Below are positions 1 through 32,404 of a stretch of DNA of 64,000 nt, piece after piece; within the stretch, counting starts at the first letter, position 1; each line of letters opens with the position of its first letter. The notes below the pieces were generated by a model. The model had not been told where the DNA came from. It did not search any database and worked only from the letters and a program-made list of their open reading frames with translations. The stretch comes from a bacterium (lineage in GTDB: Bacteria; UBP6; UBA1177), in assembly GCA_017405875.1 (NCBI GenBank), contig JAFQZM010000006.1:1-64000 (forward strand), written 5' to 3'. The position numbers and the translations under genes were made by a program.

Positions 1-325
1 CAACTCGTTCCTGAGAGGATTTTTCAACACTGCAGACATAAAAAACGGCTGGATATTCATACCTTACGGCCGGTTCAGAAAGGGAGCTCCGGCAATATTC
101 ATCGAAAAACTCGAAAGTGACAGAAAAGAGGATATCGTGCTTAAGTGGGGCGAATACCGCGTTCTTGAAATAAACCCCGATTCGGTAGTCGAGATCCACA
201 CTGCGAAAGGAGTCTTCATGACTAAAAACGACCCCGAAAGCAACAAAAAAACCATCGGCACGAAAAAAAGCAGAAAAACGCTGATTTTCGACCTTAGGGA
301 AGAGATGCACAAATGGAAACGATGA
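1..325 (+). CDS. C-terminal part of an unknown protein (cut by window edge)
   Basis: The reading frame is open from the first full codon at position 2 to the stop at 323-325, giving about 107 C-terminal residues. The visible part is basic, with a run GTKKSRKTLIF near the end and no obvious membrane segment. Its last 13 bases overlap the start of the next gene, so it is the first visible member of the overlapping operon that runs to 4077. I do not recognise the family. The operon position suggests a role with the membrane proteins that follow. Confidence 0.7.
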   Translation, partial: NSFLRGFFNTADIKNGWIFIPYGRFRKGAPAIFIEKLESDRKEDIVLKWGEYRVLEINPDSVVEIHTAKGVFMTKNDPESNKKTIGTKKSRKTLIFDLREEMHKWKR

Positions 326-4077: not shown

Positions 4078-4094
4078 GAGATAAAGGGGGAAAA

Positions 4095-7001: not shown

Positions 7002-7052
7002 TTTTCACCGCAAAACAAGCAAAAAAAGACTTTTTTTTTTTATTTTTTCAAG

Positions 7053-7058
7053 TATAAT
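7053..7058 (+). promoter_or_regulatory. -10 box for the VWA lipoprotein gene
   Basis: TATAAT followed by CCG, the same -10 plus discriminator found before psd (9314) and gyrB (10379). The expected -35 position 16 bases upstream is only a T run, so recognition may depend on the -10 and flanking sequence. It lies 44 bases before the start codon. Confidence 0.5.
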
Positions 7059-7101
7059 CCGCGCCGTTGATGTTTTTTAAACTTTTTGCAAGGAGGTTTT
7101 T

Positions 7102-15729: not shown

Positions 15730-15913
15730 ATCAAGAGCCTCTGCCGGAATCTCGATTGAAACCGAGTCATCGGAACTTTTGATCGTTCCGCCCTCTTCGG
15801 CTGAAATTTCCTGCGTTACCTGCTCTTTACCCTCTGCATTTCCATCACCATGATCATCGCCCGGGTCGTCAGGAACCTCTTTTGTTTTCTTGCCGCTGCA
15901 TGAAATTATTTCT
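15730..15913 (-). pseudogene. 5' remnant of a fifth AGDPIM-family lipoprotein gene
   Basis: Read on the minus strand it encodes a lipobox-like end (IISCSGKK), an acidic linker, then QEISAEEGGTIKSSDDSVS and IEIPAEALD. These align with the N-termini of the four intact paralogues (for example EIPAEEGGKIESSDGSVS at 19378). Homology stops at the IS junction (about 15730). The signal peptide has no start codon on the other side. About 60 codons survive. It shows that the array once held at least one more member and lost it through IS insertion and deletion. Confidence 0.75.
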
Positions 15914-15997
15914 ATACAAGGAGTTTTTTCAAGAAAAAAGGGGAATTAAATCGGAATTCTTTGACTCAGGGAATTTATCGGATCAGAAAAAAAGGCT

Positions 15998-18900
15998 TTA
16001 CATAGACGTAGGCAGGCATTCTTTTAAATCATCGGACCATGCAAATTCGCCGTCGCAGCTGCACTCATATTCCGATGCTGATTTAGGCGAGCATTCTCCG
16101 GTAGAATTTACCGACGGATCGGCACACGGTTCATCTGCACACGGATTTACACATTTATGCTCTGCTGCTGTCCAGAAAAAGCCTGCCTCTTCATCGCAGC
16201 TGCAGTTGTATTCTTCTGCCGATAGTACAGTACATTCTCCGGTAGAATGTACCGATTCTGCAGCACACGGATCACCTTCGCACGGATTCAGGCATGCCGA
16301 ACCGTTCCACTTATAATCTGAAGCACAGCCGCACTCATACGTCGTTTCCGATGTGGGTGTGCAAAGTCCCGTGGAATGCAGAACCGAGCCGCACGGATCA
16401 GTCGAACAGATGCTTGCACAAATTGAACCGTTCCACTCGTAAAAATCAGGACATATACACTCGTAAGTTCTTACGCTGTCATTCTCGACGACATTGCAGC
16501 GCGCAAGTCCGTTACAGGGATCATCAGCACACGGGTTGGAACCGTCGGAAACACAGCGGACTCTGTTCGTATCAGTCTCACTTGTTGAAGTAATATATAT
16601 ATCTGAAAAACTAAAGTAGTAGAGTTCATCGTCGTAATCGGCAGCCCACAGATAGTCGATGTCGCCGAAAAGCGAATATTTTCCTGTAGCATCAACAGGA
16701 CACGGAGCTTCATCTTCAGTGCAGTTTCTGATAATTGTCGAAACTTCATCGAATGTAGGCATTCTCCACCAGTGGTCCGGATCACCTTCGGAGAGTTCAT
16801 AGCAGTATTCCTTTGCTTCCTTCAGTGTCAGGAAGTCTGAAGAAATATCGGACCATGTAATCCCTGTTTCCGGATCGGTATAAGGAGTCATTTCATAAGG
16901 AAGGGTTTCGTCAAGAACGCATCTCTGGAAAAGCATTGAAACGGGAATATATGAAGGCAATCCCAGGCTGCCGTATTCCGTGCTCAAAGCCCATAATTCA
17001 TAACCATAATAATTACCGTCATTAGCATTGAATGTAGCAGAAATCATAGCTCCGTAATCGTAGAAAAGAGTTTGTGACGGTTCGTCGCCGGAACATGTTC
17101 CTTCACTTTCACATGAACTCTGGAAACATTCATTCGTTATCCCGCAGGAGCCGTCTTTTTTGAGTCTTTCACTTGTAACTATCGAACGGATCTCATCTAT
17201 AGTCGGAAGTCTCCATTTGTTCGAGCCCTTTTCTCTCAGGTCGCGGCACATTTCGGCAATATCCCACGAATAAACACCGTCGTCTGCCGAGCGCGTATTG
17301 TTTCTGCAGTTAAGGCATCCGCCTCCGTTATAGGATGAGATCTTTGATTTGTCGAAATCTACAAAAATTTCGGGGTATATGACCGAAGACCAGACCGTTC
17401 CGTCTGCAGCTCTGCACGGTGTTACTCCGCTTTCGTTGCAGGCAGGGAAATCGGTTTTTTCATCAAGTTGTGATCTGACGCAGCGGACGGAAATAGGCAG
17501 TTCGCTGTGTCTCATGATGTAAAATCCTCCGGCGGTCTTGCCGTTGAAGGTGTAAGCCGTTCCGTCGGTCATGTCGATGACCCACTTGTATTCACCGGCG
17601 CTGGTCGAACTCCAGAAAACATCGGCTTTCATGCCCGGGAATGAAGAAGCGACATCCGATCCGAGCTTTGAATGGTCGATCAATGTTATAAGTTCGTTTT
17701 TGTTGGGAAGTCTCCAGTCGCTGAAACCGGCATACTCAAGGTTTTCGCAGTAGGAAAGCGCCTCTTTCCATGTTTCAGCCTTGCCGGATTCCTTCTGCCA
17801 GTAAAGGTTGGTAGCTGCATCAAAGACCATTTTATCGCCGCTTCTGGTGATTGAAGCATAGTCGGCTGCATTTACTTTTCCGTATTCTTCACCGCTGACG
17901 CACATAAGAATACCGTCGTTAAAGACGCTCTGGTAACTTTCGTATGCTTTCGGAGGAATTGTCAGACCGTATTCCAGCGCATATATGTAGTCTTCGATCG
18001 AACTCCAGAGATAAATGCCGTATTTATCGCTGTAGGAAGAACTTTTGAATCCGTCGTCGATGACCTTTTTGAAAAGGATCGGATCAGCCGGAACACCGCG
18101 GAAAAGCCTGTCGTTCCATGCAAGAGTCATAAGTTCCTTCGGTGTCGGGAATCTCCAGTCTTCCTTGCCGCCGTAAGAGATGGCGCAGCCGTTTTTAACT
18201 CCTTCGTAAGTTCCCTTTACGCCGATATAAAGCCATGTAAGACCGGTATTGTCGTCATGCACTTCGACGAAATCGTTTTCAAGCGCTTCCGGTTTTACGA
18301 CTTCTTTCATCTTATGATTCGGAACGCACGATCCTCTTACCGCATACTGTGCATCCTGACCGTAAAATTCATTTCCCTCTTCAGGACACAGAATCTGGGA
18401 ACCTTCCTCGTCGGTGCAGATCGTCATGCCCGTACAGAAAACTTTGGAATAAAGAAGTTCAGGTTCCGGCTCCGGAATGACCGTTTCGGTGTCGCCGTCG
18501 TCAGGTTCCGGTGTGTCGGTATCGCCGTCGTCAGCCGGTTCGTCATCGTCTTCGACAACCGGCTCGTCGTCTTCTACAACAGGATCGTCGTCATCTTCTA
18601 CAACAGGATCGTCATTATCGTCTTCATCAGAAATCACATCGTCATCTTCATCAGGTTCTTCCAGTTCTTCTTCAACATCAATAAGGAAAAATGCATAAGC
18701 GGTGAAATGTCCTGTAGTCATCATTATCGGATCGCCTGCACCCGCTTTCATTATCGGATCGCCCGCTGCAGTTACCATAATCGGGTCTCCAGCAGCACTC
18801 AGCCTTGCGCCATTACTCTTCATGATCGGATCACCGGCAGCATTCAGCATTATCGGATCACCCGCAGCAGTCGTCAGAATCGGATCGCCTCCAGGGGTTT

Positions 18901-19378
18901 TTCCTGCAATTTTAACCGCAGCACCTGTCGGGCTGTAGCTCCACTCACCTTTCGTTTCCCTGTAAACCGCTGCCGTCACCACCGTTTTATTGGTTTTTCT
19001 GAGTGTCTCTTCGCCGCTTCCGAGACTTATCATCGAAATCGTAACCGGCTTCTGGAAAATTATGCCGGACGGCTCGAATTCTACGATTTTGCTGATGACG
19101 GTTTCGCCTTCAGTGCCCGGATAATTCTTGGCTTCGTAAACTTTCATCGTGATAGTCGTGGCGGTGTCAAGAGCTTCTGCAGGAATTTCTATCGAAACAC
19201 TTCCGTCGGAACTTTCGATTTTACCGCCCTCTTCGGCTGGAATTTCCTGGGAGACCTCTTCTTCAAGCACAGGTCCGGTACTGTTGTTCTCGTTGTTTTC
19301 TTTTTTCTTCTTGCCGCCGCAGGATGCAACCGCAAAAATCAAAACAAAAACAAAAATAAGGCTAAAAACTCGTTTCAT
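15998..19378 (-). CDS. AGDPIM-repeat lipoprotein A with DUF1566 modules and EGF-like tail
   Basis: 1126 residues. Lipobox VASC with Cys20. Residues 40-230 form a ZU5-like domain (EEGGKIESSDGSVSIEIP, FEPSGIIFQKP) that ends in GHFTAYAF and is interrupted at 162-219 by GGDPIL plus five AGDPIM repeats. Residues 235-310 are acidic (VVEDDDDP units). A four-Cys module with FYGQDAQY spans 315-352. Four DUF1566/Lcl_C modules follow at about 375-495, 517-640, 650-830 and 850-970, each with a WRLP-type motif. Four EGF-like Cys-rich units fill 975-1126, a tail the other paralogues lack. Probably displayed on the outer membrane surface; binding partner unknown. The start has GGAG 8 bases upstream. Confidence 0.85.
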   Translation of the reverse strand: MKRVFSLIFVFVLIFAVASCGGKKKKENNENNSTGPVLEEEVSQEIPAEEGGKIESSDGSVSIEIPAEALDTATTITMKVYEAKNYPGTEGETVISKIVEFEPSGIIFQKPVTISMISLGSGEETLRKTNKTVVTAAVYRETKGEWSYSPTGAAVKIAGKTPGGDPILTTAAGDPIMLNAAGDPIMKSNGARLSAAGDPIMVTAAGDPIMKAGAGDPIMMTTGHFTAYAFFLIDVEEELEEPDEDDDVISDEDDNDDPVVEDDDDPVVEDDEPVVEDDDEPADDGDTDTPEPDDGDTETVIPEPEPELLYSKVFCTGMTICTDEEGSQILCPEEGNEFYGQDAQYAVRGSCVPNHKMKEVVKPEALENDFVEVHDDNTGLTWLYIGVKGTYEGVKNGCAISYGGKEDWRFPTPKELMTLAWNDRLFRGVPADPILFKKVIDDGFKSSSYSDKYGIYLWSSIEDYIYALEYGLTIPPKAYESYQSVFNDGILMCVSGEEYGKVNAADYASITRSGDKMVFDAATNLYWQKESGKAETWKEALSYCENLEYAGFSDWRLPNKNELITLIDHSKLGSDVASSFPGMKADVFWSSTSAGEYKWVIDMTDGTAYTFNGKTAGGFYIMRHSELPISVRCVRSQLDEKTDFPACNESGVTPCRAADGTVWSSVIYPEIFVDFDKSKISSYNGGGCLNCRNNTRSADDGVYSWDIAEMCRDLREKGSNKWRLPTIDEIRSIVTSERLKKDGSCGITNECFQSSCESEGTCSGDEPSQTLFYDYGAMISATFNANDGNYYGYELWALSTEYGSLGLPSYIPVSMLFQRCVLDETLPYEMTPYTDPETGITWSDISSDFLTLKEAKEYCYELSEGDPDHWWRMPTFDEVSTIIRNCTEDEAPCPVDATGKYSLFGDIDYLWAADYDDELYYFSFSDIYITSTSETDTNRVRCVSDGSNPCADDPCNGLARCNVVENDSVRTYECICPDFYEWNGSICASICSTDPCGSVLHSTGLCTPTSETTYECGCASDYKWNGSACLNPCEGDPCAAESVHSTGECTVLSAEEYNCSCDEEAGFFWTAAEHKCVNPCADEPCADPSVNSTGECSPKSASEYECSCDGEFAWSDDLKECLPTSM
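18722..18895 (-). repeat. AGDPIM minisatellite in lipoprotein A
   Basis: GGDPIL and five AGDPIM units, mostly on a 9-residue (27-bp) period, with one insertion (KSNGARLS) that breaks the register. The units sit between the last two strands of the ZU5-like domain. Confidence 0.85.
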
Positions 19379-19415
19379 GCGCTTCTCCTATTTAAAAAAC
19401 TGGAATAACCGCACA

Positions 19416-19443
19416 ATTATTAAAAATTTAAACAAAAAGGCAA
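19416..19443 (-). promoter_or_regulatory. Candidate promoter of lipoprotein A
   Basis: On the minus strand TTGCCT (19443-19438), 16 bases, AATAAT (19421-19416), then TGTGCGG. The -35 matches that of the lipoprotein at 55925. The -10 is weak. Confidence 0.4.
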
Positions 19444-19528
19444 GGAATTATTTCTGCTTTTTTAAGTTTTCTGAAATAAAAATATTTACGGATTATTTAA
19501 GACAAAATCTGCGGAAAAATGAAGATTT

Positions 19529-22500
19529 TTAGTTCGCGTCATCAGGCATTGCAACTACGCAGCGTACACGGGCGTACCCATAAGAGTTTATCCTACCCTG
19601 GACGAAATCAAACACATAACCGCCTTGTGCCTGAAGAGAGAACATATCGCCGAAAAATGAGTAACCGCCGAAAGTGTACTGACTGCATCTGCCGCTGGTG
19701 GCTCCCGTCAAAAAGTTGTTTTTGTTGCTGCATACCCTTTTGTTGATAATAGAAGCCAGCTCTGAGGTTGTCGGAAGTCTCCACTCTGTTTCTCCGCCGT
19801 AACCCTCTTCATTGAGTTCGTTACAGTATGCGGCAGCATCATTCTCAGAATCATAATATTCTTCATCCGATACTTTTGACCAGATGAGATCAGGCATTGG
19901 ATACGGAAAATCCGATTCTTCATCCAATTCCGGAACATTCTCGGAATCTGAAAGACTTCTTACGCAGCGGGCTCTGGCAAAATTTTCATAGTAAAAGGAC
20001 TGACTATCCTCTGAAGCAGTCATAAACTTCAACAAATGTACATAGTTAGAGTCACCGGAAGATATATCAGAAGACCAGAGATTGCCGAGATCTCCTAAAA
20101 CGGAATATTCACCGGTTGTATTAGGAACACAATCACCATCGGGGCAGTCTTTAACAAGAGTCCAGAGCTCTTCCATAGAAGGAACTCTCCAGTTGTTCGA
20201 ACCGCCTTCGACAAGGTCAGTACAGTATTTCGCGGCATCATACCAGTACGGGAGATATTTTTTTGAAAGCGATGACCAGATAAGTCCGTTTTCAGAATCG
20301 GTATACGGGAATGCAGGCAGATTCGGTAAGGAATCATCCTTTATACATCTTGACTGGCTGGAACCATAACCATCATGATAGTTCTCAGTACGCTTTACAG
20401 AATCATTCTTCATATTTACGAACCAAACAGCATCATGGCTATTTGTATCGGTAAAAGTTCCTGAGAAATAAATTCCACTGTCAAAAAGGCTCGACATAAC
20501 CTTTTCTCTGCCTACTTCCGGCGAGCACTCTGATTCATTGAAGCACTCTTCACTTGCGTAATCGAAACATGCGTTTGTAACTTTGCACTCGCCATCGGGT
20601 TTGAGAAATTCGTCTGCCGGGAAAAGCTTACGGAGTTCATCGATTGTAGGAATTCTCCATTTCGAGATGCCGCCTTCATTGGATTCACGGCACTGAATCG
20701 CCTTTTTATCCCATGTCATCGGAACCATAGGATTGCTGCTGTCGCTATAGCTAAAGTCTACGTCTGCTGAAGACCATACATAACCGGTAGAAGCATCTTC
20801 ACAGGGCCCGATTCTCGATGCGTCACAGTAAGGAATAGTTCTTCCGGCTGCCAGCGGCTGAGTATCGCTTCTTACGCAGCGGACTGACGGATTTTCATCA
20901 TAAGAGCTATAATCTTTAACTTGTCCGCTTTTCATATCAATTGCGATCGGACCGCCTGCATTGCCGTAAGTAACCTGGGAAGTCGAAGTGAGCAAGGTCT
21001 CCGAAGTCATTCCGGGGAACAATGATGCCGGATCAGCTCGTGAATAGTCGACAAGTGTGACAAGTTCGTTCTTGTTGGGAAGTCTCCAGTCGGAATAGCC
21101 CGCATATTCAAGATTTTTGCAGTAAGCAAGCGCTTCTTTCCAATTTTTGACAGTTTTGGAATTCTTCTGCCAAAGGAGATTGGTAGAAGAATCGGAAACC
21201 ACTTCATGGCCGTTTATCGTCCTGATCTCATAATTCTCGGCATTGACTTTGCCGTATTCTTCACCGCTTACACACGCGATACTGTGATTAGTACTTCCGT
21301 ATTGCCCGATACCGTCCCACTCAAGAGTACCATACTCCGATTTATATGCCCAAAACGGATCTTGATAGTAATTATCATCAACAAGAGCGGGTTCAGATGC
21401 CCAGAAACCATAATAACCAAAATTTCCGAAATAGTAGTCATTGGCAGCCGAAGCAAATCTGTCATGGTCGGAAATACTCAAAAGCTCTTTGACTGTAGGA
21501 AGACGCCATTCGTGTCCGCCGTAAGTAAGTTCAGCGCATCTGGTCTCCGCTGCCGCATGAAGTCCACTCTCATTAAGAAAAACCCATTTCAGGTGGGTGT
21601 TTTCGTCAAGTACGAACTCGTAAGATTCGCCTGTTTCTCCGTCTCTGAGGACTCCGTTTCTAATGTTTGCGTTATTGCTTCCGCCGCGCAGAATATTTCT
21701 CAAACCGGTTCCTTCGCCCTCTTCAGGGTCTTCTTCCACAGCAACCGGTTCCGTTTGTATGCTGTATTTATGCGGAACACACGATTTGGTTGCAACGAAC
21801 TGTGCATCCTGACCGTAAAAATCTTCTCCCTCGGCAGGACAGTCGATAGTCATTTCTCCGTCGCTGCACTTCGTCAGACCTGTGCAGAGAACTTTGGAGA
21901 GAACTGGAACAGGCGGTTCCGGAACAACGATGTCTTCGTCAACATCGGGAGTTTCGTCTTCATCTACGATTTCGTCTTCGTCAACTACAGGTTCGTCATC
22001 GTCTTCGACCACAGGATCGTCGTCATCTTCGACAACAGGTTCGTCATCGTCATCTTCGACAACAGGTTCATCGTCTTTATCGGTAACTTCTTCATCTTTT
22101 TCGGGTTCTTCAGGCTCTTTCTCGGGCTCTTTCGGATCAATCGTAATGAATGTATAAGCCGTGAAGTGACCTGTCGCCATCATGATCGGGTCGCCTGCCG
22201 CAGCGTTCATGATCGGATCGCCTGCCGCAGAATTCATTATCGGATCTCCTGCCGAAGCCATCATGATCGGGTCTCCCGCCGCAGAGTTCATGATCGGGTC
22301 TCCTGCTCCTGTCGTAAGATTTCCGTCACTCAGCATGATCGGATCTCCTGCTGCAGTCGTCATTATCGGATCACCCGCTGCATCTCTGCCCATGACTCCG
22401 TAAGCGCCGTGCTCGCTGTAGCTCAGCCTGCCTTCTTTTTCATAGAAAACAGCAGCCGAAACTATCTTATTTTCAAACGCTTCGGTCGCAGTCATCGTAA

Positions 22501-22828
22501 TGATGACAGGTTTTTTGAAAACCGTGCCGCTCGGCTCGAATTCGACAACTTTACTGACAACTTTCATTCCTCCGATTTTATCCGGGATTGCGGCATAACC
22601 CGATACATCGTAGATCGTCATCGTGATCTTTGTGTCTGAATCAAGGGCATCTGCGGGAATTTCGATAGAAGTATTTCCGTCGGAACTCTCAACTTTGCCG
22701 CCCTCTTCGGCTTTGATCTCTTTCGATACCTGCTCTTCATACACAGGGTTTTCCTTCTTACTGTCGCCGCAGGAAGCGACTGAAAGCATCAATACAAAAA
22801 CAAAAATCAAACTGAAAAAACGTTTCAT
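19529..22828 (-). CDS. AGDPIM-repeat lipoprotein B with DUF1566 modules
   Basis: 1099 residues from the ATG at 22828, preceded by AGGAGG at 7 bases; a GTG two codons upstream is less likely. Lipobox VASC. The ZU5-like domain carries EEGGKVESSDGNTSIEIP, FEPSGTVFKKP and GHFTAYTF, with seven AGDPIM units inserted. A highly acidic linker of VVEDDDDE units follows, then the Cys module with FYGQDAQF. Five DUF1566-type modules have the motifs WRLPTVKEL, WRLPNKNEL, WRIPTIDEL, WRVPSMEEL and WRLPTTSEL. There is no EGF-like tail. It starts 26 bases after the ATPase/nuclease gene upstream, so the two may be co-transcribed. Likely a surface lipoprotein with multiple ligand-binding modules. Confidence 0.85.
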   Translation of the reverse strand: MKRFFSLIFVFVLMLSVASCGDSKKENPVYEEQVSKEIKAEEGGKVESSDGNTSIEIPADALDSDTKITMTIYDVSGYAAIPDKIGGMKVVSKVVEFEPSGTVFKKPVIITMTATEAFENKIVSAAVFYEKEGRLSYSEHGAYGVMGRDAAGDPIMTTAAGDPIMLSDGNLTTGAGDPIMNSAAGDPIMMASAGDPIMNSAAGDPIMNAAAGDPIMMATGHFTAYTFITIDPKEPEKEPEEPEKDEEVTDKDDEPVVEDDDDEPVVEDDDDPVVEDDDEPVVDEDEIVDEDETPDVDEDIVVPEPPVPVLSKVLCTGLTKCSDGEMTIDCPAEGEDFYGQDAQFVATKSCVPHKYSIQTEPVAVEEDPEEGEGTGLRNILRGGSNNANIRNGVLRDGETGESYEFVLDENTHLKWVFLNESGLHAAAETRCAELTYGGHEWRLPTVKELLSISDHDRFASAANDYYFGNFGYYGFWASEPALVDDNYYQDPFWAYKSEYGTLEWDGIGQYGSTNHSIACVSGEEYGKVNAENYEIRTINGHEVVSDSSTNLLWQKNSKTVKNWKEALAYCKNLEYAGYSDWRLPNKNELVTLVDYSRADPASLFPGMTSETLLTSTSQVTYGNAGGPIAIDMKSGQVKDYSSYDENPSVRCVRSDTQPLAAGRTIPYCDASRIGPCEDASTGYVWSSADVDFSYSDSSNPMVPMTWDKKAIQCRESNEGGISKWRIPTIDELRKLFPADEFLKPDGECKVTNACFDYASEECFNESECSPEVGREKVMSSLFDSGIYFSGTFTDTNSHDAVWFVNMKNDSVKRTENYHDGYGSSQSRCIKDDSLPNLPAFPYTDSENGLIWSSLSKKYLPYWYDAAKYCTDLVEGGSNNWRVPSMEELWTLVKDCPDGDCVPNTTGEYSVLGDLGNLWSSDISSGDSNYVHLLKFMTASEDSQSFYYENFARARCVRSLSDSENVPELDEESDFPYPMPDLIWSKVSDEEYYDSENDAAAYCNELNEEGYGGETEWRLPTTSELASIINKRVCSNKNNFLTGATSGRCSQYTFGGYSFFGDMFSLQAQGGYVFDFVQGRINSYGYARVRCVVAMPDDAN
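22181..22381 (-). repeat. AGDPIM minisatellite in lipoprotein B
   Basis: Seven AGDPIM units, mostly on a 27-bp period, with a spacer LSDGNLTTG after the second. Codon-level identity between neighbouring units is high, which favours slippage or unequal exchange. Confidence 0.88.
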
Positions 22829-22854
22829 AAACACACCTCCTATAATAAATCTGA

Positions 22855-24393
22855 TTACAAATCTTCTTTCAAATATTCGCTGACACAGCGTTTTTCCTTA
22901 TCAACCACAATAGAAACGGCAATCTTTTTGCGCGGATCGGCTGCAAATTCATCGGCACAACCTTTTATTTTTATCTGGTTTATTCCTTCTAGCGCAGTTG
23001 TAGGAGCCATTTTATACTCAAAAATGTAGATAGAATCTTTTGTTTTGATTACCGCATCGGCTCTGCCTTTGTATGAAGAAAGTTCGCTTGCAACCCTATA
23101 GCCCAAAGTTTTCAACAGAACATAGATCAATGACGAAAAATAATTCTCGTTTTCTTTCGGAATTATCTGGTAAGGAATTGAAGCAAAAAGCGCGTTTACA
23201 GCGGTAATAAAACCGTCAATGTCGCCTGCTCTCAAAGAGTCCAGCATTTTATCGTCATGGTTTCCGTATTTCTGATCGGTGAAATTTGTAAGCAGATACG
23301 CGGCAAACGACTGTCTGACTTCTTCATTCGGATAGTCGAGCAGATATTTTCCGTTTTCATTTTTCCCGACAATCGTGAGGTAGCCGGTCTGGAACATCAG
23401 TGCTTTTATGTCTATTTTTGTTACATCGAAATTGTTAAGATCAAGCTCTGAAATTGCAGTATTTTCAAGCTCTTTTATATCAACAGAGTGTTCGCGGATA
23501 AAATCGACCAGAAGTTTTGGAAGACCGCTTTCAAACCAGTAGTTTTTAAACTCTTTTTTGGCAAAAAAATTAAGAATCGAAAAGGGATTGTAGATGTGCG
23601 TCTTTCCGTCAAATTTATATCCGTCATACCAGAATCTTATTTTTTCATCGAGTTCAACGCGAGAAATTTCCAGCTCTTCACAAGCAGCATCTTTGTATTC
23701 GTTGAAATATTCGTTCAAATCATCCTTTGTGAATCCGCAGATGGCAGCAAAATTTTTGTCCATAGAAATGTCTGCCAGATTGTTGAGTTCGGAGAAAACA
23801 GACATCTTGGAAAAACGGGAAATTCCGGTGATAAGCACGAATCTCAGCATTTCGCTGCAACCCTTTATTGCGCCGTAGAAATTGCGCATAATCTCTCTGT
23901 TTTCCTCGGCTTTTTGAATATCATTGATCGAATCAACGATCGGTTTGTCGTATTCGTCAATCAGAAGGACAACTCTTTCGCCTGTTTTTTTGTAAAGTTT
24001 TTGGATTAATTCGATAAGCCTCTTCTTATTGTCATCACTTGAGAGCTGAAGATTATATTGCTCTGAACTTTCATCCAGCATCTCATTTATTGCCAAAGAA
24101 AGAGACCGTCTGAAAAAACTGCTTCTGTTGAAATCAATTTTGATTACCGGGACTTCCTTCCAATCAAAATTGTTTTCGATCCAAAGTCCTTTAAAAAGTT
24201 CCTTTTTTCCTTCAAACAAATTTTTAAGTGTTGAAATGAGCAGCGATTTTCCGAATCTGCGCGGACGGGAAAGAAACACAAATTGGGAAAGATTCAACAA
24301 ATCGTAAATTATTTTCGTTTTGTCTGCATAAATTCCGTTCCATTCGATAAGACCTGCGAAATCCTGCTGACCGATAGGCAATCTTTTTAACAT
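22855..24393 (-). CDS. AAA-ATPase-like / PD-(D/E)XK nuclease-like protein (DUF1703 type)
   Basis: 512 residues from the ATG at 24393, which has AAGGAG 10 bases upstream; an in-frame start 11 codons earlier lacks a site. The N-terminus LPIGQQDFAGLIEWNGIYAD is typical of the AAA-ATPase_like family. The nucleotide-binding loop is SRPRRFGKSLL near residue 45. A Walker B-like segment VVLLIDEYDKP follows. The C-terminal PD-(D/E)XK_9 domain shows GRADAVI followed by EYK. Proteins of this build are common in anaerobes and occur in many copies; their role is unknown and defence or mobile-element functions have been suggested. Here it lies between lipoproteins C and B with gaps of 42 and 26 bases. Confidence 0.9.
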   Translation of the reverse strand: MLKRLPIGQQDFAGLIEWNGIYADKTKIIYDLLNLSQFVFLSRPRRFGKSLLISTLKNLFEGKKELFKGLWIENNFDWKEVPVIKIDFNRSSFFRRSLSLAINEMLDESSEQYNLQLSSDDNKKRLIELIQKLYKKTGERVVLLIDEYDKPIVDSINDIQKAEENREIMRNFYGAIKGCSEMLRFVLITGISRFSKMSVFSELNNLADISMDKNFAAICGFTKDDLNEYFNEYKDAACEELEISRVELDEKIRFWYDGYKFDGKTHIYNPFSILNFFAKKEFKNYWFESGLPKLLVDFIREHSVDIKELENTAISELDLNNFDVTKIDIKALMFQTGYLTIVGKNENGKYLLDYPNEEVRQSFAAYLLTNFTDQKYGNHDDKMLDSLRAGDIDGFITAVNALFASIPYQIIPKENENYFSSLIYVLLKTLGYRVASELSSYKGRADAVIKTKDSIYIFEYKMAPTTALEGINQIKIKGCADEFAADPRKKIAVSIVVDKEKRCVSEYLKEDL

Positions 24394-24435
24394 TGAACAG
24401 CTCTCCTTGTTTTTATCCCCCATCATGTAGAGACG

Positions 24436-27400
24436 TTACCTTACGCAACGAACATAGTTATTGGTTGTCTTATAGTCGTGGTCCACACGCCCATAGTCGA
24501 AATCCACATACCAGAAGTAATCTGTACTATCTGAGGCAGAGGAAGACCACAAATAAGCCGCATCTCCGAATTTGCTGTGTCCGCCGGTGGAATCTGATGA
24601 ACAGGAGTAACAAGCATCTGAACTCCAACAATCAGAATAAGAGAGGCAACTCGTCGTAACACCGCATGAACCGCCTGATTCTGTGCCTGCACACTCCTGA
24701 ATAAGCGTCCTGAGTTCGTCGATATCCGGCAGTCTCCAGTCGGTGTATCCGCCATCGGTCAGGTTTTCGCAGTATGAACCGGCATTTTCCCAATACATAC
24801 TGCTTGACGATTTTGCCGACCATGTAAGATTAGTTTCCGTGTCGGTATAGGGGAATACTATTTCGCACTCTTCTCCGTCCCACTCATAGCCTTCATCGCA
24901 GCCGCAGATGTAAACGCCGTCTTCGCTTGTGCATGTTCCGTCGGAATTTTCAATTTCCTCACACGGGTAGAGATCACACGGAGACGGGTTTTCGTCAACA
25001 TCGGCAACGCAGCGGACTTTAGTATAGAAGGTTCGAATTGCATCTGAGGTCAGTTCTGTCTGCGAAGCCGTCATGAAATCCAAAACATTGTAATAGGTTT
25101 CAACATTGGTCGGCAGCTGATTTCTGGTTACAGTAGACGACCAGAGCGTGGAAACATCACCGAAAACGGAATAAGCACCGTAAATATCAGGTGCGCAGCC
25201 GCCGTCATGACAGCCCTGAACGAGAGTTGCAAGTTCTTCGATTGTCGGAAGTCTCCATGCGTATTCATCGTCTTCCGTGCAGTATTCATTTGCTTCATCC
25301 CAGCTGAGCTGATCTGCAGAAAGTTCCGACCAGACAAGAGAATTTTCATCGTCGGTGTACGGGAATTCCACATCGGGAATACTATTGTCCTTTACGCAGC
25401 GGATACTCGGAGTTACATAAATATATTCGCCGTGGTGAGACTCGATCGCGCCGGTTTGGAAATTGACTCTCCATGAATAGCCTTCGCCTTCGCCCGTCTG
25501 AGTTCCGGAAACCATGAAAGTGTAGTCGCCGAATACCGATTCAATAGCGGTTCCGGTTTCACAGATTTCCGAATCGTAGCAGACTTCACTCGATATTTCG
25601 CTGCATTCGTCGGAGACGTAGCATTCGTCGAGGCCATCGCTCCTGAGTATCGTGCGGATTTCGCTGATTGTCGCAACTCTCCACTGCGAAATACCGCCCT
25701 GTTTTGATTCACGGCACATCATAGCAGCTTCAAGATAATCGACCTCGTCATCACTGTCATTCACATCCTGCGACCAGACTATGCCTGTTTCGGCGTCTTC
25801 GCACGGAGTGTAACCCGTTTCGTCGCACGCCGGAACCGCACTGTACTGCGCGACATCGGATCTGACGCACAGAGTATATGCAGTTGTAACATTTCCCTGA
25901 GTTTCACCGACACTGAACATCGTTCCGCCGCCGACCTCCATGATGAATGCTCTTGCAGATCCGCCGTAGTCAGGAGCAGATGTCGAAGTCCAGTAATTTC
26001 CTCCGATGATATCGGGGAAGTCACTCTTGCTATCACCATATTCTTTGCCGGTATAGTTAAGAATTGTCGCAAACTCGTTTCTGTTAGGCAGTCTCCAGTC
26101 GGAATATCCTGCATAATTCAAGTCTTCGCAGTAAGCAAGAGCCTGAGACCAGTTCATGTCAAGCTCAGTCGCAGCTTTCCACATAAGGTTAGTCGCGGAA
26201 TCCGTAACAACGGTGCCTCCTGAAATATTTTTCTCAGTAAATGTTCCCGCAACGCCGTATTCCGTGCCGCTTACGCAGGCGAAATAGTTGCTCCCCTCTT
26301 TTCCGTAACTGCTATATTGCAGATAACCGTGGCCGGTATCCATAATCAGGACTTCATCTTCTCCTGTTTTCTGATTTTGGAAATATGTGCCTGACCAGTA
26401 TGAGTTGGATGAATACATTCCCGTTCTGAAGTATGCCAGGCGGAGAGCAGGATAGCTTGAACCGCTGTCAATAATGCTCATAAGCTCTTTCGCAGTCGGG
26501 AGTCTCCACTCTCGGCCTTCTCCCGTATCAAGCGTGTCGCAGAATGTATAAGCATTGTCCCATGTTCCGAAGCCTGTATAGAAATACCATCTCAAACCTG
26601 TAGAGAGATCGTCAACTATATTGCAGGCGTCGTTATCACTAATGCAGTTTGTTTCCTCAGAGATTTTTTCGTAAACCTGCGGAGTACAGGACTGTCTTGC
26701 AGTGTAGTTTGCATCCTGACCGTAGAATTCCTCACCTTCAAGCGGGCAGTCGATTACGGAACCTTCATCGTTATAGCATTTTGTCTGGCCTGTGCAGAGA
26801 ACTTTTGCGACAGGTGCGCTGCATTTCACAGTATCTTCATTCCATTCGTAATCCTCGATGCACACAAATGCGCAGTCGCCTTCTTCCGCATAGTGAGCCG
26901 TATAGTACGGATACCCCTTGCCGTTCCAAGTCGGAATGTATGTGTCTCCGTTTACCCATGCAGCATTTTCCGGAAGCTCGCCGCAGGATTCAGCCGGCTT
27001 TGTGTCGGACTGGCAGCTTTCTTCTTCATAGTGGTAGTTTGCAACGCACTCGAAGGTACACTCTTCGCCCTCATCCTCAAAGTAGGTTGCCTCAGGTTCG
27101 GTCGACCATGCTTCATTACTCCAGTGAGGAATGTATGTTGCAGCCACCCAAGCCGCATTAGACGGAAGGTTCGTGCAGTTCTGCGCTTCACCGGTATCGG
27201 ATACGCAGGCATCGTTTTCGACATGCTGCTCAGCCTGGCATGCGCATGTTCCGTTGGTCTCAACCCAGATGTATGTTGCCTTGCACTTATAAGCGCAGTC
27301 GCCTTCCTCTGCATAGTGAGCCGATGCGCTCGAGTAGTCTTCGCCGTACCAGGTCGGAACGTATGTTTCACCGCTTACCCACTGCGCATTCTCTGGAAGA

Positions 27401-29097
27401 TCGCCGCAGGATTCAGCCGGCTTTGTATCGGACTGGCAGCTTCCCTCCTCGTAGTGGAAGTTCTCGACACACTCGAAAGCGCATTCACTGCCGCCATCTT
27501 CAAAATAGGTTGCCGCAGGTTCGGTCGACCATGCGCCGCTTACCCAGTGCGGAGTGTAGGTTTCGACTTTCCAAGCCGCATTAGCAGGAATGTTCGTGCA
27601 GTTCTGCGCTTCACCGGTATTGGATACGCAGGCATCATTTTCAACGTGCTGAGCATCCGTACAAGCACAGGTTTCGTTAGTTTCAACCCAGGTGTAGGTC
27701 GGTTTGCACTGATAAGCGCAGTCTCCTTCTTCAGCATAGTTTGCCGATGCGCTCGAATAAGCACTGCCGTTCCAGGTCGGAACGTACGTGTCACCGCTTA
27801 CCCACTGCGCGTTTGCAGGAAGCGTTCCGCAGCTTGCCGCAGCCTGTGTATTCGATTTGCACTCACCGTTTTCGACGTGCTCTGTCGACTGGCAGGTGCA
27901 GCTTGAATCGATCCAGCTGTAGGTCGGTTTGCACTGATAAGCGCAGTCTCCCGATTCAGCGTAGTGAGCCGATACGGATGACGTATATTCCTCGCCGTTT
28001 CTGGTCAATTCGTATGTATCACCGTTTACCCACTGTGCATTTTCGGGAAGAGTTCCGCAAGAAAGTGTTGCGATCTGGCAGTCGTCAGAGCAGGAAGCAC
28101 CGATTCCCTCGCCTTTGCCGGATTCAGGATCAGCCTTGTCGCAGACTTCGTTGCCCTGTTTCGTACCGTCACCGCAGTAAGCGACTGAACCTGCCTGTTT
28201 TTTGCATTCTTTCGTGCAGAGTTCGCAGCTCTTTTCGCCGTAAGCACAGTCGGTTTTGCCGTTGTCGCTGCCGTTATCGCACTCTTCACCTTCCTCAACA
28301 ACGCCGTTTCCGCATTCCGGGGCATTGTCTTCATCTGGAGAGACGTCTTCATCGCCGTCATTAGTATCGGCATCAGCATCGACGGTACCTGCCTGAGAAT
28401 CAGATTCTTCGACAACTATAAAAGTGTAAGCCGTGAAGTGACCGGTCGTCATCATTATCGGGTCACCGGCAGCAGCGTTCATGATCGGATCACCCGCTGC
28501 ATTCGACATGATCGGGTCGCCTGCAGAAGCAAGCATGATAGGATCACCTGCAGAAGCAAGCATGATCGGATCGCCCGCCGCACTCATCATTATCGGGTCG
28601 CCTGCTGCATTCAGCATAATAGGATCGCCTGCAGCAGTCTGCATGATCGGGTCGCCCGCTGCATCTTTGCCGACAAGAATAGCATACTCGCTGTGTTCGC
28701 TGTAGCTCCATGCGCCCTTAGCTTCGTTGTAAACAGCGGCTGCAACTACTTTGTCTTTGATTTCGTTGTTTGCCGTCATCTTAATGATAATCGGTTTTTT
28801 GAAAATTGTGCCGCTTGGTTCGAACTCGACGACCGTGCTTATAACTTTTTCGCCTTTTGCCGTAGCATAGTGCGAACTTTCATAAACACTTACCGTGATG
28901 GTAGTATTTGAATCAAGAGCATCTGCAGGAATATCAACGGCAACCGATTCATCGGAAGTCGATACCGTTCCGCCTTCTTCAGCGCTGATTTCCTTTGAGA
29001 CCTTCTCCTTAACGTCATCTTTTTTCTTTTTGTCGCCGCAGGATGCGACCGCAAAAACCAAAATAAAAATCAAAACCAAACTGAGCACACGTTTCAT
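24436..29097 (-). CDS. AGDPIM-repeat lipoprotein C, giant Cys-rich form with DUF1566 modules
   Basis: 1553 residues, the largest of the family. Lipobox VASC with Cys20. The ZU5-like domain (about 40-227) is split by eight AGDPIM units (146-216). Residues 260-345 hold two Cys-rich repeats of the myxobacterial type (CGNGVVEEGEECDNG; CGDGTKQGNEVCDK). Residues 346-758 are six tandem Cys-rich repeats of 60-77 residues with cores such as LPENAQWVSG and YAEEGDCAYQCK. The Cys module with FYGQDANY (about 767-805) and five DUF1566-type modules (about 820-1553) follow, with a short EGF-like unit before the last. The ribosome site AGGAGG precedes the ATG. It probably heads a transcript with the ATPase/nuclease gene and lipoprotein B. 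Confidence 0.87.
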   Translation of the reverse strand: MKRVLSLVLIFILVFAVASCGDKKKKDDVKEKVSKEISAEEGGTVSTSDESVAVDIPADALDSNTTITVSVYESSHYATAKGEKVISTVVEFEPSGTIFKKPIIIKMTANNEIKDKVVAAAVYNEAKGAWSYSEHSEYAILVGKDAAGDPIMQTAAGDPIMLNAAGDPIMMSAAGDPIMLASAGDPIMLASAGDPIMSNAAGDPIMNAAAGDPIMMTTGHFTAYTFIVVEESDSQAGTVDADADTNDGDEDVSPDEDNAPECGNGVVEEGEECDNGSDNGKTDCAYGEKSCELCTKECKKQAGSVAYCGDGTKQGNEVCDKADPESGKGEGIGASCSDDCQIATLSCGTLPENAQWVNGDTYELTRNGEEYTSSVSAHYAESGDCAYQCKPTYSWIDSSCTCQSTEHVENGECKSNTQAAASCGTLPANAQWVSGDTYVPTWNGSAYSSASANYAEEGDCAYQCKPTYTWVETNETCACTDAQHVENDACVSNTGEAQNCTNIPANAAWKVETYTPHWVSGAWSTEPAATYFEDGGSECAFECVENFHYEEGSCQSDTKPAESCGDLPENAQWVSGETYVPTWYGEDYSSASAHYAEEGDCAYKCKATYIWVETNGTCACQAEQHVENDACVSDTGEAQNCTNLPSNAAWVAATYIPHWSNEAWSTEPEATYFEDEGEECTFECVANYHYEEESCQSDTKPAESCGELPENAAWVNGDTYIPTWNGKGYPYYTAHYAEEGDCAFVCIEDYEWNEDTVKCSAPVAKVLCTGQTKCYNDEGSVIDCPLEGEEFYGQDANYTARQSCTPQVYEKISEETNCISDNDACNIVDDLSTGLRWYFYTGFGTWDNAYTFCDTLDTGEGREWRLPTAKELMSIIDSGSSYPALRLAYFRTGMYSSNSYWSGTYFQNQKTGEDEVLIMDTGHGYLQYSSYGKEGSNYFACVSGTEYGVAGTFTEKNISGGTVVTDSATNLMWKAATELDMNWSQALAYCEDLNYAGYSDWRLPNRNEFATILNYTGKEYGDSKSDFPDIIGGNYWTSTSAPDYGGSARAFIMEVGGGTMFSVGETQGNVTTAYTLCVRSDVAQYSAVPACDETGYTPCEDAETGIVWSQDVNDSDDEVDYLEAAMMCRESKQGGISQWRVATISEIRTILRSDGLDECYVSDECSEISSEVCYDSEICETGTAIESVFGDYTFMVSGTQTGEGEGYSWRVNFQTGAIESHHGEYIYVTPSIRCVKDNSIPDVEFPYTDDENSLVWSELSADQLSWDEANEYCTEDDEYAWRLPTIEELATLVQGCHDGGCAPDIYGAYSVFGDVSTLWSSTVTRNQLPTNVETYYNVLDFMTASQTELTSDAIRTFYTKVRCVADVDENPSPCDLYPCEEIENSDGTCTSEDGVYICGCDEGYEWDGEECEIVFPYTDTETNLTWSAKSSSSMYWENAGSYCENLTDGGYTDWRLPDIDELRTLIQECAGTESGGSCGVTTSCLSYSDCWSSDACYSCSSDSTGGHSKFGDAAYLWSSSASDSTDYFWYVDFDYGRVDHDYKTTNNYVRCVR
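26824..28062 (-). repeat. Six tandem Cys-rich repeats in lipoprotein C
   Basis: Repeats begin SCGTLPENAQW, SCGTLPANAQW, NCTNIPANAAW, SCGDLPENAQW, NCTNLPSNAAW and SCGELPENAAW. Units 2-3 and 4-5 form two copies of a larger long-plus-short unit, which points to duplication of a two-repeat block. Cys spacing is conserved and suits disulphide-stabilised modules. Confidence 0.85.
28450..28662 (-). repeat. AGDPIM minisatellite in lipoprotein C
   Basis: Eight uninterrupted AGDPIM units with a strict 9-residue, 27-bp period. This is the most regular of the four arrays. Confidence 0.9.
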
Positions 29098-29129
29098 AAA
29101 AAAAACCTCCTAAAACCTATCAACTACTC

Positions 29130-29235
29130 ACCTAAGTTAGGGGAGCCGGCTGCGCAGCAGACTGTGGCGTGTGTCGGTCTTTCAACACACGCCCCCGTTG
29201 CTCCGCAACACCCCCTCTAGCTTAGAGGGGGATTT
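29130..29235. repeat. Multi-hairpin intergenic island between lipoproteins D and C
   Basis: About 105 bases with consecutive palindromes: CCTAAGTTAGG at the left; GCTGCGCAGC; CGTGTGT...ACACACG with a 10-base loop; GTTGC/GCAAC; and a perfect 9-bp hairpin CCCCCTCTA/TAGAGGGGG at 29211-29231. It lies after the lipoprotein D stop and before the lipoprotein C start. It resembles a small dispersed element or a compact terminator/processing region. No coding sequence is evident. Confidence 0.55.
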
Positions 29236-29242
29236 ATAAAAC

Positions 29243-32200
29243 TTAAACCTCAAGATATCTGACACAGCGGACATAACCGGAATTTTCATAACCCCAGGAT
29301 TCGTTGCTTCCGCCTACAACTTCGCCTGTCGTGAAGTTGAACAGATACGGATACCCTTCGTTTTTGTCTGAAGTCCAGAATTTTCCGTAATCGTTGAATA
29401 TCGAATGACTCTTGAATGTATAGTCGCAGAAGCAGCGTTCTGTCTCTCCTTCATTAAGAACGATGTCTTCACGGCAGGAACCGCTGCAGTCCATTTCTTC
29501 ATTTTCACTTACGAGAAGATGTAAATAATCCCAGACAGACGGCAGTGCCCAGTCGCTGGCACCTTCGTACTCAGCCTCGTTGAGAGCGTTGCAGTAAGCT
29601 ACAGCATCTTCGACAGAGCCTGTTATCAGTTCAGATTTCTCTGACCATGCCGTATCGTCAATATAATACGGGAAAGACTCTTCAAAATTGTCAGGGTCTT
29701 CGAGCGGATCTGAAGCGGAACGGACGCAGCGGACCTGCAGATCGGAATAGAAGTCCGAAAGATTTTTGCTCCGATCTGTCATAAGATCGATAAAATCAAT
29801 CGTCGTCATGTAGGATTCGTCCAAAACATCGCTGCTAAGAAGAATCGGAATATCAGAGAAAAGCGAATATTTTCCGTTCAGATCGGGAGCACACGAACTG
29901 GTGCCTTCAAGGTCGCAGTTTCTGACAAGCGTCTGCAGCTCGGCCATAGTCGGAACTCTCCAGTTGTCGGAACCGCCTTCAACAAGCGTTCCGCAGTATT
30001 CAACGGCATCTCTCCAGTCTCCTTCTTCCGAGATCGACGACCATACAAGTCCGTTTGTCTCGTCGGTGTAAGGCGTAGGCTTCGGATCTTCAATAGAGTC
30101 GTCAAGAACGCATCTTACGACAAGCTGCGGCGCATATACTGTAGAAACATCTGACATTCCGCCGGTACTCAGATCTATCGTCCAGACATTCCACTGGTCA
30201 CGCTCATAGTCTGCATTGGCGTTGGCGAATGTTCCAGAAAGAAGGATTCCGTAGTCACGGAGCACTGTTTCATGTTCTGCGACCTCTGCGGACGAGCATT
30301 CCGACTCATAAGCGCTGTAATCCGAATGTTCCACCGTAACTCCGCATGTTCCGCCTGTTTTGAAAACATCGTCGGTAAAAAGAGTCCTTACATCGTCTAT
30401 TGTCGGGATTCTCCACTTTCCGCCCTTCATATTGCGGCAGTCTTTTGCCACATTCGACCAGTGGACGGATTCCATTTCATACTCATTGTAAATCAGTCTC
30501 TGCGACCATGTGATGTTGTTTGCGTCTTTGCACGGAGAATATCCGTCTGCGCCGCATGCCGGTATTCCGTTTTCGGGATAGGGCGTAAGATCGCTTCTGA
30601 CGCAGATGACAGAATAAGTTTCACCTGAATTGATTCCTCTTGTCCTGGATTTAACCTGAGGATGATCCGACATACGCAATCCCATTTCGCCGGTTTTCAT
30701 ATCGATCGCAACTGCGCCGATAGTCATCGTGAAAGTCGATGTAACAAAATTTTCAGCCGGCAGTCCCGGGAAAGATGATGCAGGATTCGACTTGGAATAG
30801 TCAACAAGGCTCGCAAGCTCGTTTTTGTTCGGAAGTCTCCAGTCGTCATGACCTGCGTAATTCAAGCCTTCGCAGTATGCAAGCGCCTCAGGCCACGTTT
30901 TTCCGCTGACGGAAGTTTTCTGCCAGAAAAGATTGGTTTTCGAGTCAAAAATCATCTCTTGACCGTTTTCATTCTTCGAAGTATAGTCCGAAGCCGCAAC
31001 TTCACCGTATTTATCACCTTTAACACAGAGCAGAGCTTTATAGTCTGACTGACCATCGCTGCCGATACTGCCGGTATAGGTATCGTAGTAGAAATTCTTA
31101 TCCGAAGTCCAGAATGACTCGGTTCCTTCCCAATCCACAGTAAAATATACCGATTTGATCTCTTTGCCGGAATTAAGGTTGTTGAAAATATCGTGGTCGG
31201 CAATAGTCAGGAACTCGGCAGGTGTCGGCATTCTCCATCCGCCGCCGGCATATTCTGAAAGAGTTTCTTCGCAATACGGAGCTATATCATCGTAGGATTC
31301 TCCGCTTTCCGATGTGAGGATCCATGTAAGCCCGGTATTATTGTCCTTTATCTGCTGATACGGCGTGACATCATTTTCCGCCTTTTCAATTTTCTCAAAA
31401 CTCTTCGGAACACACGATTTTCTGAAAATATATCCCGCATCCTGACCGTTCAGAGTCTCGCCTTCTTTCGGGCACTCATCCAGAACGCCGTCTTCGCCGA
31501 AGCAGTTTCTGCTGCCGGTGCAGATAACTTTGGAATAAAGCGGTTCCGGTTCCGGAATATTGTCTTCGTCCGGTGAAGCGGTATCGGTGTCATCGTCCGT
31601 TACAGGTTCGTCGTCACCGTCGTCAACAGGCTCTTCGTCAGGTTTTTCACTGTTTTCTCTCGGATCGAAAATGAGGAAGCTGTAAACCGTGAAGTGACCT
31701 GTCGTCATCATTATCGGATCGCCCGCTGCCGCGTTCATAATCGGATCTCCTGCAGCAGAGCTCATTATCGGGTCGCCTGCGGAAGCAAGCATTATCGGGT
31801 CGCCTGCAGCGCTCATCATTATCGGGTCACCCGCAGCATTAGTCATTATCGGATCTCCTGCCGCGTTAGTCATCATTATCGGGTCGCCTGCAGCAGTCGT
31901 CAGGTTTCCGTTGTCAAGCACGACTTCCTTGCCGTCAGTCGTCGTCATTACCGGGTCACCCGCTTCAGTCCTGCCTTCACCGAGTTTCAGATAAAAGCCC
32001 TGACTGTAGCTCCACGCCTGTTTGCTCTCATCAAATACCGCAGCGACTATCGTTTTGTCTTCGGCTTTTTCAGCGGCTGCCATTTTGATGATGACGGGCT
32101 TTTTGAAGATCGTGCCGTTCGGCTCGAAATTTACGACCTTGCTGAAAATTTTCTCGCCTTCGCTTTCATAACCTTCAGCGTCGTAGATCGTCATCGTGAT

Positions 32201-32404
32201 AGTGGTGTCTTCATCAAGAGCACCGGCCGGAATTTCAACCGAAGTCTTTCCGTCTTTACTTTCGACCGTTCCGCCTTCTTCAGCCTTGATCTCTTTTGAG
32301 ACCTGCTCTTCATAGCCCGGAATTTCCTCTTTTTTCTTCTTGTTGCATGAAACAACCATGCAGATCAAAAGAAAAACAAGCATCAAACTGAAAAAACGTT
32401 TCAT
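29243..32404 (-). CDS. AGDPIM-repeat lipoprotein D with DUF1566 modules
   Basis: 1053 residues. Lipobox VVSC with Cys20. The ZU5-like domain (EEGGTVESKDGKTSVEIP, FEPNGTIFKKP, GHFTVYSF) carries EAGDPVM plus seven AGDPIM units at about 148-233. A short acidic linker and the Cys module in the diverged form NGQDAGY follow. Five DUF1566-type modules have the motifs WRMPTPAEF, WRLPNKNEL, WRIPTIDDV, WRVPTMAEL and, in a degenerate last one, WALPSVWDY. AAGGAGGG precedes the ATG. It is the first gene of the array in transcription order and is divergent from prmA across the repeat element at 32451-32511. Confidence 0.85.
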   Translation of the reverse strand: MKRFFSLMLVFLLICMVVSCNKKKKEEIPGYEEQVSKEIKAEEGGTVESKDGKTSVEIPAGALDEDTTITMTIYDAEGYESEGEKIFSKVVNFEPNGTIFKKPVIIKMAAAEKAEDKTIVAAVFDESKQAWSYSQGFYLKLGEGRTEAGDPVMTTTDGKEVVLDNGNLTTAAGDPIMMTNAAGDPIMTNAAGDPIMMSAAGDPIMLASAGDPIMSSAAGDPIMNAAAGDPIMMTTGHFTVYSFLIFDPRENSEKPDEEPVDDGDDEPVTDDDTDTASPDEDNIPEPEPLYSKVICTGSRNCFGEDGVLDECPKEGETLNGQDAGYIFRKSCVPKSFEKIEKAENDVTPYQQIKDNNTGLTWILTSESGESYDDIAPYCEETLSEYAGGGWRMPTPAEFLTIADHDIFNNLNSGKEIKSVYFTVDWEGTESFWTSDKNFYYDTYTGSIGSDGQSDYKALLCVKGDKYGEVAASDYTSKNENGQEMIFDSKTNLFWQKTSVSGKTWPEALAYCEGLNYAGHDDWRLPNKNELASLVDYSKSNPASSFPGLPAENFVTSTFTMTIGAVAIDMKTGEMGLRMSDHPQVKSRTRGINSGETYSVICVRSDLTPYPENGIPACGADGYSPCKDANNITWSQRLIYNEYEMESVHWSNVAKDCRNMKGGKWRIPTIDDVRTLFTDDVFKTGGTCGVTVEHSDYSAYESECSSAEVAEHETVLRDYGILLSGTFANANADYERDQWNVWTIDLSTGGMSDVSTVYAPQLVVRCVLDDSIEDPKPTPYTDETNGLVWSSISEEGDWRDAVEYCGTLVEGGSDNWRVPTMAELQTLVRNCDLEGTSSCAPDLNGKYSLFSDIPILLSSDVLDESYMTTIDFIDLMTDRSKNLSDFYSDLQVRCVRSASDPLEDPDNFEESFPYYIDDTAWSEKSELITGSVEDAVAYCNALNEAEYEGASDWALPSVWDYLHLLVSENEEMDCSGSCREDIVLNEGETERCFCDYTFKSHSIFNDYGKFWTSDKNEGYPYLFNFTTGEVVGGSNESWGYENSGYVRCVRYLEV
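31706..31963 (-). repeat. AGDPIM minisatellite in lipoprotein D
   Basis: EAGDPVM, a 17-residue spacer (with VVLDNGNLTT), then seven AGDPIM units on a 27-30 bp period. The NGNLTT spacer is shared with lipoprotein B, so the two arrays derive from a common ancestor. Confidence 0.87.

Follow-up and report, generated by a model that had tools for sequence, protein, structure and literature searches.

Invariant GDPIM arrays within the ZU5 domain of lipoproteins from a UBP6-type uncultured bacterium

A lipoprotein gene cluster between gyrA and prmA

The window analysed here, a stretch of 64,000 nucleotides from contig JAFQZM010000006.1 of a UBP6-type uncultured bacterium, carries a cluster of lipoprotein genes (15998-32404) that lies between gyrA and prmA and adjoins gyrBA. 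The encoded proteins share a ZU5 domain interrupted by tandem copies of a short peptide, AGDPIM, whose core, GDPIM, is nearly invariant in the arrays collected in this work. An earlier interpretation of the same DNA, made from the letters alone and hereafter called the sequence-only reading, had described four complete genes of 1053-1553 residues and one remnant; this was borne out, as four full lipoprotein genes of 1126, 1101, 1553 and 1053 amino acids (aa), all on the minus strand, were found together with the remains of a fifth copy.

15730..15900 (about), minus strand: remnant of a fifth copy, from a lipobox-like Cys to the start of ZU5
15998..19378, minus strand: P0001, lipoprotein of 1126 aa with ZU5, AGDPIM array, four Lcl_C modules and an EGF-like Cys-rich tail
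19529..22834, minus strand: P0002, lipoprotein of 1101 aa with ZU5, array and five Lcl_C modules
22855..24426, minus strand: P0003, AAA-ATPase_like/PDDEXK_9 gene of 523 aa, interposed in the cluster
24436..29097, minus strand: P0004, lipoprotein of 1553 aa with ZU5, array, Cys-rich inserts and five Lcl_C modules
29243..32404, minus strand: P0005, lipoprotein of 1053 aa with ZU5, array and five Lcl_C modules

All four proteins show the module order previously proposed, namely lipobox Cys, linker, ZU5, array, acidic linker, four-Cys module and Lcl_C. Specifically, a lipobox Cys follows the signal peptide in each of them, and the four-Cys module is also common to the set; the YGQDA sequence ascribed to this module does not apply to P0005, which reads LNGQDA. 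P0002 starts with a GTG codon, with an MKR start two codons further on. When the five cluster proteins were compared with NCBIfam, no model covering the array was found. The fifth-copy remnant is 94.8% identical over 172 nt to an intact gene of the sibling genome JAFYIZ (L090).

The cluster is not uninterrupted, as the AAA-ATPase/PD-(D/E)XK gene splits P0002 from P0004. This gene is missing from the equivalent place in JAFYIZ, and a PADLOC search of P0003 gave no defence match. It is probably not part of the lipoprotein system and possibly represents the insertion of a mobile gene.

The interrupted ZU5 domain and its invariant array

The ZU5 family (PF00791) was matched above the curated Pfam cut-off in all four proteins, with scores of 28.3-36.4 bits against 21.

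19031..19234, minus strand: ZU5 match of P0001, profile positions 7-78 of 97; the domain resumes past the array
22487..22708, minus strand: ZU5 match of P0002
28750..28983, minus strand: ZU5 match of P0004
32075..32281, minus strand: ZU5 match of P0005

These matches end near profile position 78-86 of 97, ahead of the array. A sequence profile search of the PDB returned ankyrin ZU5 (E 6.5e-7), and Foldseek, run on a domain model built by AlphaFold2 from 56 homologues, returned ankyrin ZU5 (7.4e-6), UNC5b (4.9e-5) and the GAIN domain of BAI3 (3.8e-3). The model places strands within residues 10-135, at predicted local distance difference test (pLDDT) values mostly of 66-92, and two further strands after the array (194-201 and 204-210); most of the embedded array is predicted as a loop at pLDDT of about 30-45, between better-modelled strands. 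In conclusion, the window proteins do have a ZU5 domain, and the array interrupts it, as the sequence-only reading had suspected; the point of insertion lies shortly ahead of the last strands. In addition, Pfam detects seven ZU5 domains in this genome, and each of them holds the array.

After the array, each of the four domains carries an HFT triplet.

18701..18709, minus strand: HFT of P0001, candidate self-cleavage site
22160..22168, minus strand: HFT of P0002, candidate self-cleavage site
28432..28440, minus strand: HFT of P0004, candidate self-cleavage site, between the last two predicted strands
31688..31696, minus strand: HFT of P0005, candidate self-cleavage site

The motif H[FY][ST] follows 107 of the 108 arrays found in a ZU5 context, and NFS follows the remaining one. 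Self-cleavage of ZU5 domains is well known in animal PIDD and inflammasome proteins, and HF-S/T is a self-cleavage site in Nup98 too. The motif is HF/S in PIDD, where it is placed like the HF-S/T of the window domains, and SF/S in CARD8 and NLRP1 (PMC3210808); self-cleavage has also been proposed for bacterial ZU5 domains, which occur in surface and polymorphic-toxin proteins (PMC3482391). By profile and structure search the window domains have the fold of this ZU5/GAIN/Nup98 self-cleaving superfamily, from which they differ in that a GDPIM array is built into the loop ahead of this motif. The active-site CxH described in PMC3482391 was not found in the window-type proteins, whose sequences (TTGHF, MATGHF, QTNHY and SQVGHF; TGHF and NHYS at the motif itself) lack its Cys. 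As judged from the motif and its position, self-cleavage of the window ZU5 at HF|S/T is probable; with this site beside the array, the domain would be a bacterial example in which such self-cleavage is easy to test.

The arrays themselves lie as follows.

18722..18865, minus strand: array of P0001, five exact AGDPIM units, with a GGDPIL unit just upstream
22181..22378, minus strand: array of P0002, seven exact units
28453..28659, minus strand: array of P0004, eight exact units, 9-residue period
31709..31891, minus strand: array of P0005, seven exact units, with an AGDPVM unit upstream

The window holds 27 AGDPIM-coding sites, against 0.00 expected from shuffling. Among 859 units from 112 open reading frames (ORFs), G is kept in 859, D in 857, P in 859, I in 856 and M in 858, so that each residue of GDPIM is at least 99.6% invariant; the count tolerates at most one difference from AGDPIM and leaves out doubly changed units, and, the loci having been fetched for holding the motif, it describes units inside known arrays. 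The residue that precedes the core can be A, G, S, M, L, Q or T. The AGDPIM array of the sequence-only reading stands, and its leading A, which varies between genomes, is not part of the invariant core. Units are nearly always either perfect or clearly lost, as 710 perfect intervals compare with five in-register units at four of five residues and 25 at three or fewer. The periods found are 6, 9, 10, 12, 13, 15 and 18, several of them mixed in single arrays; a period of 9 dominates, and up to 21 copies occur per protein. Within the same order, units in families f2 and f3 often follow one another without a spacer, with a period of 6. The excess of multiples of three in the spacing (754 of 792) was considered as a structural clue and dropped, since it is expected from 6- or 9-residue units of which some have been lost.

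Every synonymous codon is used in the GDPIM units, and codon identity over four codons is near random, at 0.46 between arrays and 0.52 within arrays. Therefore, sequence copying does not account for the identity of the peptides. This bears on the view that the array is a selfish or mutational repeat without function, that is, a short coding repeat spreading into permissive loops. Palindromic elements inserted in Rickettsia genes offer a parallel, and the loop and linker sites of the array, as well as its several host families that differ between genomes, would agree with it. However, near-random synonymous sites in an invariant peptide point to strong purifying selection at the peptide level, and the recent DNA homogenisation that a neutral repeat needs is not seen. 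Moreover, no copies lie beyond nine exported-protein genes of this genome, and unit number is nearly unchanged between siblings; we consider this explanation very improbable.

The dominant period of 9 recalls the nonapeptide repeats of RTX proteins (CyaA, 6sus), which are likewise rich in G and D and extracytoplasmic. The array could then be a beta-roll spacer, a relative or analogue of these calcium-binding repeats that extends or stiffens its hosts. A phmmer search with the array indeed retrieved the RTX block of CyaA (E 0.0038), and plasmid matches to the array are mostly calcium-binding proteins, although phage and plasmid matches are weak throughout. On the other hand, the array does not follow the RTX consensus GGxGxDxUx with Asp at position 6: the calcium ligand Asp6 aligns to the Pro of GDPIM, and the GG pair is absent. 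In addition, GDPIM is invariant to an extent far exceeding that of the degenerate RTX repeats, many arrays have a spacerless period of 6, and a mere spacer leaves the genome-specific preceding residue, described below, unexplained. Taken together, a beta-roll spacer appears unlikely. A literature search found AGDPIM in none of the papers covered and GDPIM only in unrelated ones; the earlier statement had been that no described system is known to combine ZU5-like and DUF1566 modules with AGDPIM arrays, and the invariant GDPIM pattern appears to be undescribed.

Hosts of the array and its possible role as a tag

The 2.5 Mb genome has 62 GDPIM-coding sites, every one of which falls within one of nine genes for exported proteins, and a reversed control gave zero. 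Among the array ORFs having a 5' end, 93 of 102 pass the lipobox pattern. The hosts include lipoproteins with a type A ZU5 domain, very large lipoproteins whose ZU5-like region has diverged further, and a transglutaminase-like secreted protein. By eye from the sequence, rather than by profile, the array was also assigned to a loop of a macroglobulin-like domain (L166, L168), to a position between the domains of an amylase-like lipoprotein (L077) and to one after a dockerin-like stretch (L148). The array is hence independent of its host and not specific to the ZU5 and Lcl_C architecture of the window proteins. One of the very large hosts, encoded in the same genome (L206, 3015-12155 on C18), is a lipoprotein of 3047 aa in which a diverged ZU5-like region and a GDPIM array are accompanied by several GQDA modules of the four-Cys type and by many Lcl_C and Cys-rich modules.

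In a set of 118 genomes, runs of AGDPIM are confined to the same order, and two distant genomes gave single AGDPIM matches at chance level. A two-unit pattern was found in 23 of 28 genomes of the phylum and in none of the three of family f4. A scan of 84,980 species genomes, which required a gap of at least 4 bases, so that pure period-6 arrays were missed and are covered in the relatives only, returned arrays only in group-consistent records and in five small genes of Sphaerochaetaceae/Spirochaetales metagenome-assembled genomes (MAGs). Taxon names were not trusted alone in this comparison, as several UBP6-like MAGs are labelled Spirochaetales. The named relatives derive mostly from rumen or other ruminant gut samples. 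No arrays were found in viral contigs.

In the spirochaete family of G121, 8 of 139 genomes have a small array gene, one each. The spirochaete GDPIM loci (L069, L076, L109, L114, L115 and L292-L294) encode small secreted or lipid-anchored proteins. The product consists of a signal peptide and the array, with little more, and the lipobox is absent in two copies; the gene may possibly have arrived by horizontal transfer. A model of the spirochaete array, built from five sequences, is predicted as beta-structure at pLDDT of about 80-90, and a fold search of the PDB with this model gave no significant match.

The residue before GDPIM changes in a coordinated manner, being typical of a genome across its hosts: Q in G019, S in G003 and G015-G018, L or M in JAGAAT, and A or G in most of the window's genus. 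Specifically, the array of the transglutaminase-like protein is mostly AGDPIM in G000, GGDPIM in G008 and G009, and LGDPIM in G011. When the majority preceding residue was compared between different host classes of these related genomes, 52% of pairs agreed within a genome and 26% between genomes, and 52% was reached by none of 2000 label shuffles.

A relative, G014, gave no array matches in the scans. Its ZU5 orthologue has a loop of 62 residues (63 in G011), yet seven of seven units are eroded in place and the HFS has turned into HLG; the other two host families were not detectable in G014.

The favoured reading, to which we give a probability of about 40%, is that GDPIM units together form a multivalent peptide tag, which exported and mostly lipid-anchored proteins carry on their loops and which a single lineage-specific partner reads in trans. 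This reading is favoured because the motif is kept exactly, is present or lost as a whole, is portable between hosts, is tuned to each genome and is eroded in a genome without arrays. In the scheme that we infer, a ZU5 beta-sandwich held by its N-terminal lipid would act as carrier, with the array inserted in the loop ahead of the last two strands, directly before HF-S/T. The partner would dock on several GDPIM units simultaneously and thereby position or anchor the adhesin. Should ZU5 be cut at HF|S/T and its halves be held together non-covalently, the outer part could be shed or answer a pull. More tentatively, GDPIM could be the address label of a surface-sorting or assembly system with a single lineage-specific reader, the loss of which would lead to genome-wide erosion of arrays in place. 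The strict conservation of a pentapeptide in several unrelated secreted proteins, apparently of two phyla, is an unusually clear mark of selection acting on a short motif, and it could lead to a new system of surface assembly or sorting in a candidate phylum for which MAGs are the only source.

Several observations weigh against the tag. An all-against-all comparison of the genes neighbouring the arrays gave only genes shared by synteny, mostly housekeeping, and no linked partner gene; the neighbours also differ between loci. Erosion was seen in G014 only; as the other host families are missing there too, it could reflect that partners in co-assembly were lost, or that the domain as a whole lost its function. 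Part of the association of the preceding residue, measured on related genomes, can be shared descent. Finally, the spirochaete proteins, almost pure array and modelled as beta-structure at pLDDT of about 84-90, favour a folded or self-associating module.

This last point is the strongest evidence for homotypic assembly, in which strands and turns of GDPIM stack between molecules, so that arrays carried by different proteins join to build a surface layer or fibre. Such assembly would need matching sequences inside a genome, and the coordinated change of the residue before GDPIM agrees with it, as does the fact that degenerate in-register units often retain G and a hydrophobic residue. However, conservative replacements (I to V, M to L, D to N) hardly occur, which is unusual for stacking repeats, and there are several periods, some of them mixed within one array. 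The lack of a significant PDB match for the spirochaete model and the low confidence of the ZU5-embedded array also count against stacking, and we regard homotypic assembly as rather doubtful.

Alternatively, the array might be a protease or modification site, cut at Asp-Pro or modified at Asp or Met, by which the outer part is released or matured. The exact sequence requirement, the extracytoplasmic hosts and the loop position right before HF-S/T would suit this role. Up to 21 copies per protein are nevertheless more than a single cut requires, GDPIM is devoid of Ser, Thr, Lys, Cys and Asn, and in most spirochaete proteins the array forms the protein end; this makes such a site improbable.

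Lcl_C modules and diversification

The four to five DUF1566/Lcl_C modules previously recognised in each protein were recovered by Pfam (PF07603) as 4, 5, 5 and 5 stretches, with whole-protein scores of 168-271 bits against a cut-off of 34.9. Secreted proteins with Lcl_C domains, also in tandem, include the adhesins Legionella Lcl, which binds glycosaminoglycans (PMC11162425), and Leptospira Lsa25. In contrast to these, the window proteins carry 4-5 tandem Lcl_C modules behind a lipid anchor and ZU5, with no collagen-like stalk. By analogy, adhesion is probably the task of the C-terminal Lcl_C modules. The 2.5 Mb genome holds 132 Lcl_C (DUF1566) matches, a very large expansion for its size.

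The sibling JAFYIZ holds the same cluster, with P0001, P0002 and P0005 (the last partly covered) 85-87% identical to those of the window; its fifth gene is open over the 467 residues covered. GDPIM unit numbers are 6/7/8/at least 6 in the sibling and 5/7/8/7 in the window, whereas the P0004 tail differs between the two, having been swapped. Because JAFYIZ has almost unchanged unit numbers yet another P0004 tail, array number is stable and tails are changeable. Fast diversification of repeat number is not supported.

DUF1566 is a known target of diversity-generating retroelements (PMC4159848), and two such elements lie elsewhere in the genome, their variable repeats being the C-terminal Lcl_C of two large lipoproteins. 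The first (L203, G000:C14) comprises reverse transcriptase, template repeat and variable repeat at 3254-4729, 4718-4851 and 5561-5694; its target is a lipoprotein of 764 aa, and 16 of 16 mismatches fall at template adenines. The corresponding parts of the second (L204, G000:C46:28000-40375) lie at 5718-7187, 7179-7307 and 8112-8240, and its target is an Lcl_C protein of 898 aa, in which template adenines account for 21 of 21 mismatches. In L203, a repeat copy that has diverged further lies at 2804-2937, at the end of a 141-aa Lcl_C protein. P0004 ends similarly.

24421..24554, minus strand: C-terminal Lcl_C of P0004, resembling a retroelement variable repeat, not cognate

This end is the best match in the window, being identical to the template repeat at 58 of 85 non-A template positions. 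It has 21 mismatches at A and 27 at other bases, and the latter mark it as a relative that neither retroelement currently targets. No adenine-only match to either template repeat was found in the window genes, which in this respect differ from the known DUF1566 targets and are not current retroelement targets. The proposal of a diversifying surface-protein set is thus supported in part, by the decay of the remnant, the swapped P0004 tail and the Lcl_C retroelement targets elsewhere, but not as regards quick array variation or the window genes as current targets.

Away from the cluster, positions 313-4077 of the window hold four successive plus-strand ORFs without a Pfam match, upstream of a PDZ-S41 peptidase gene.

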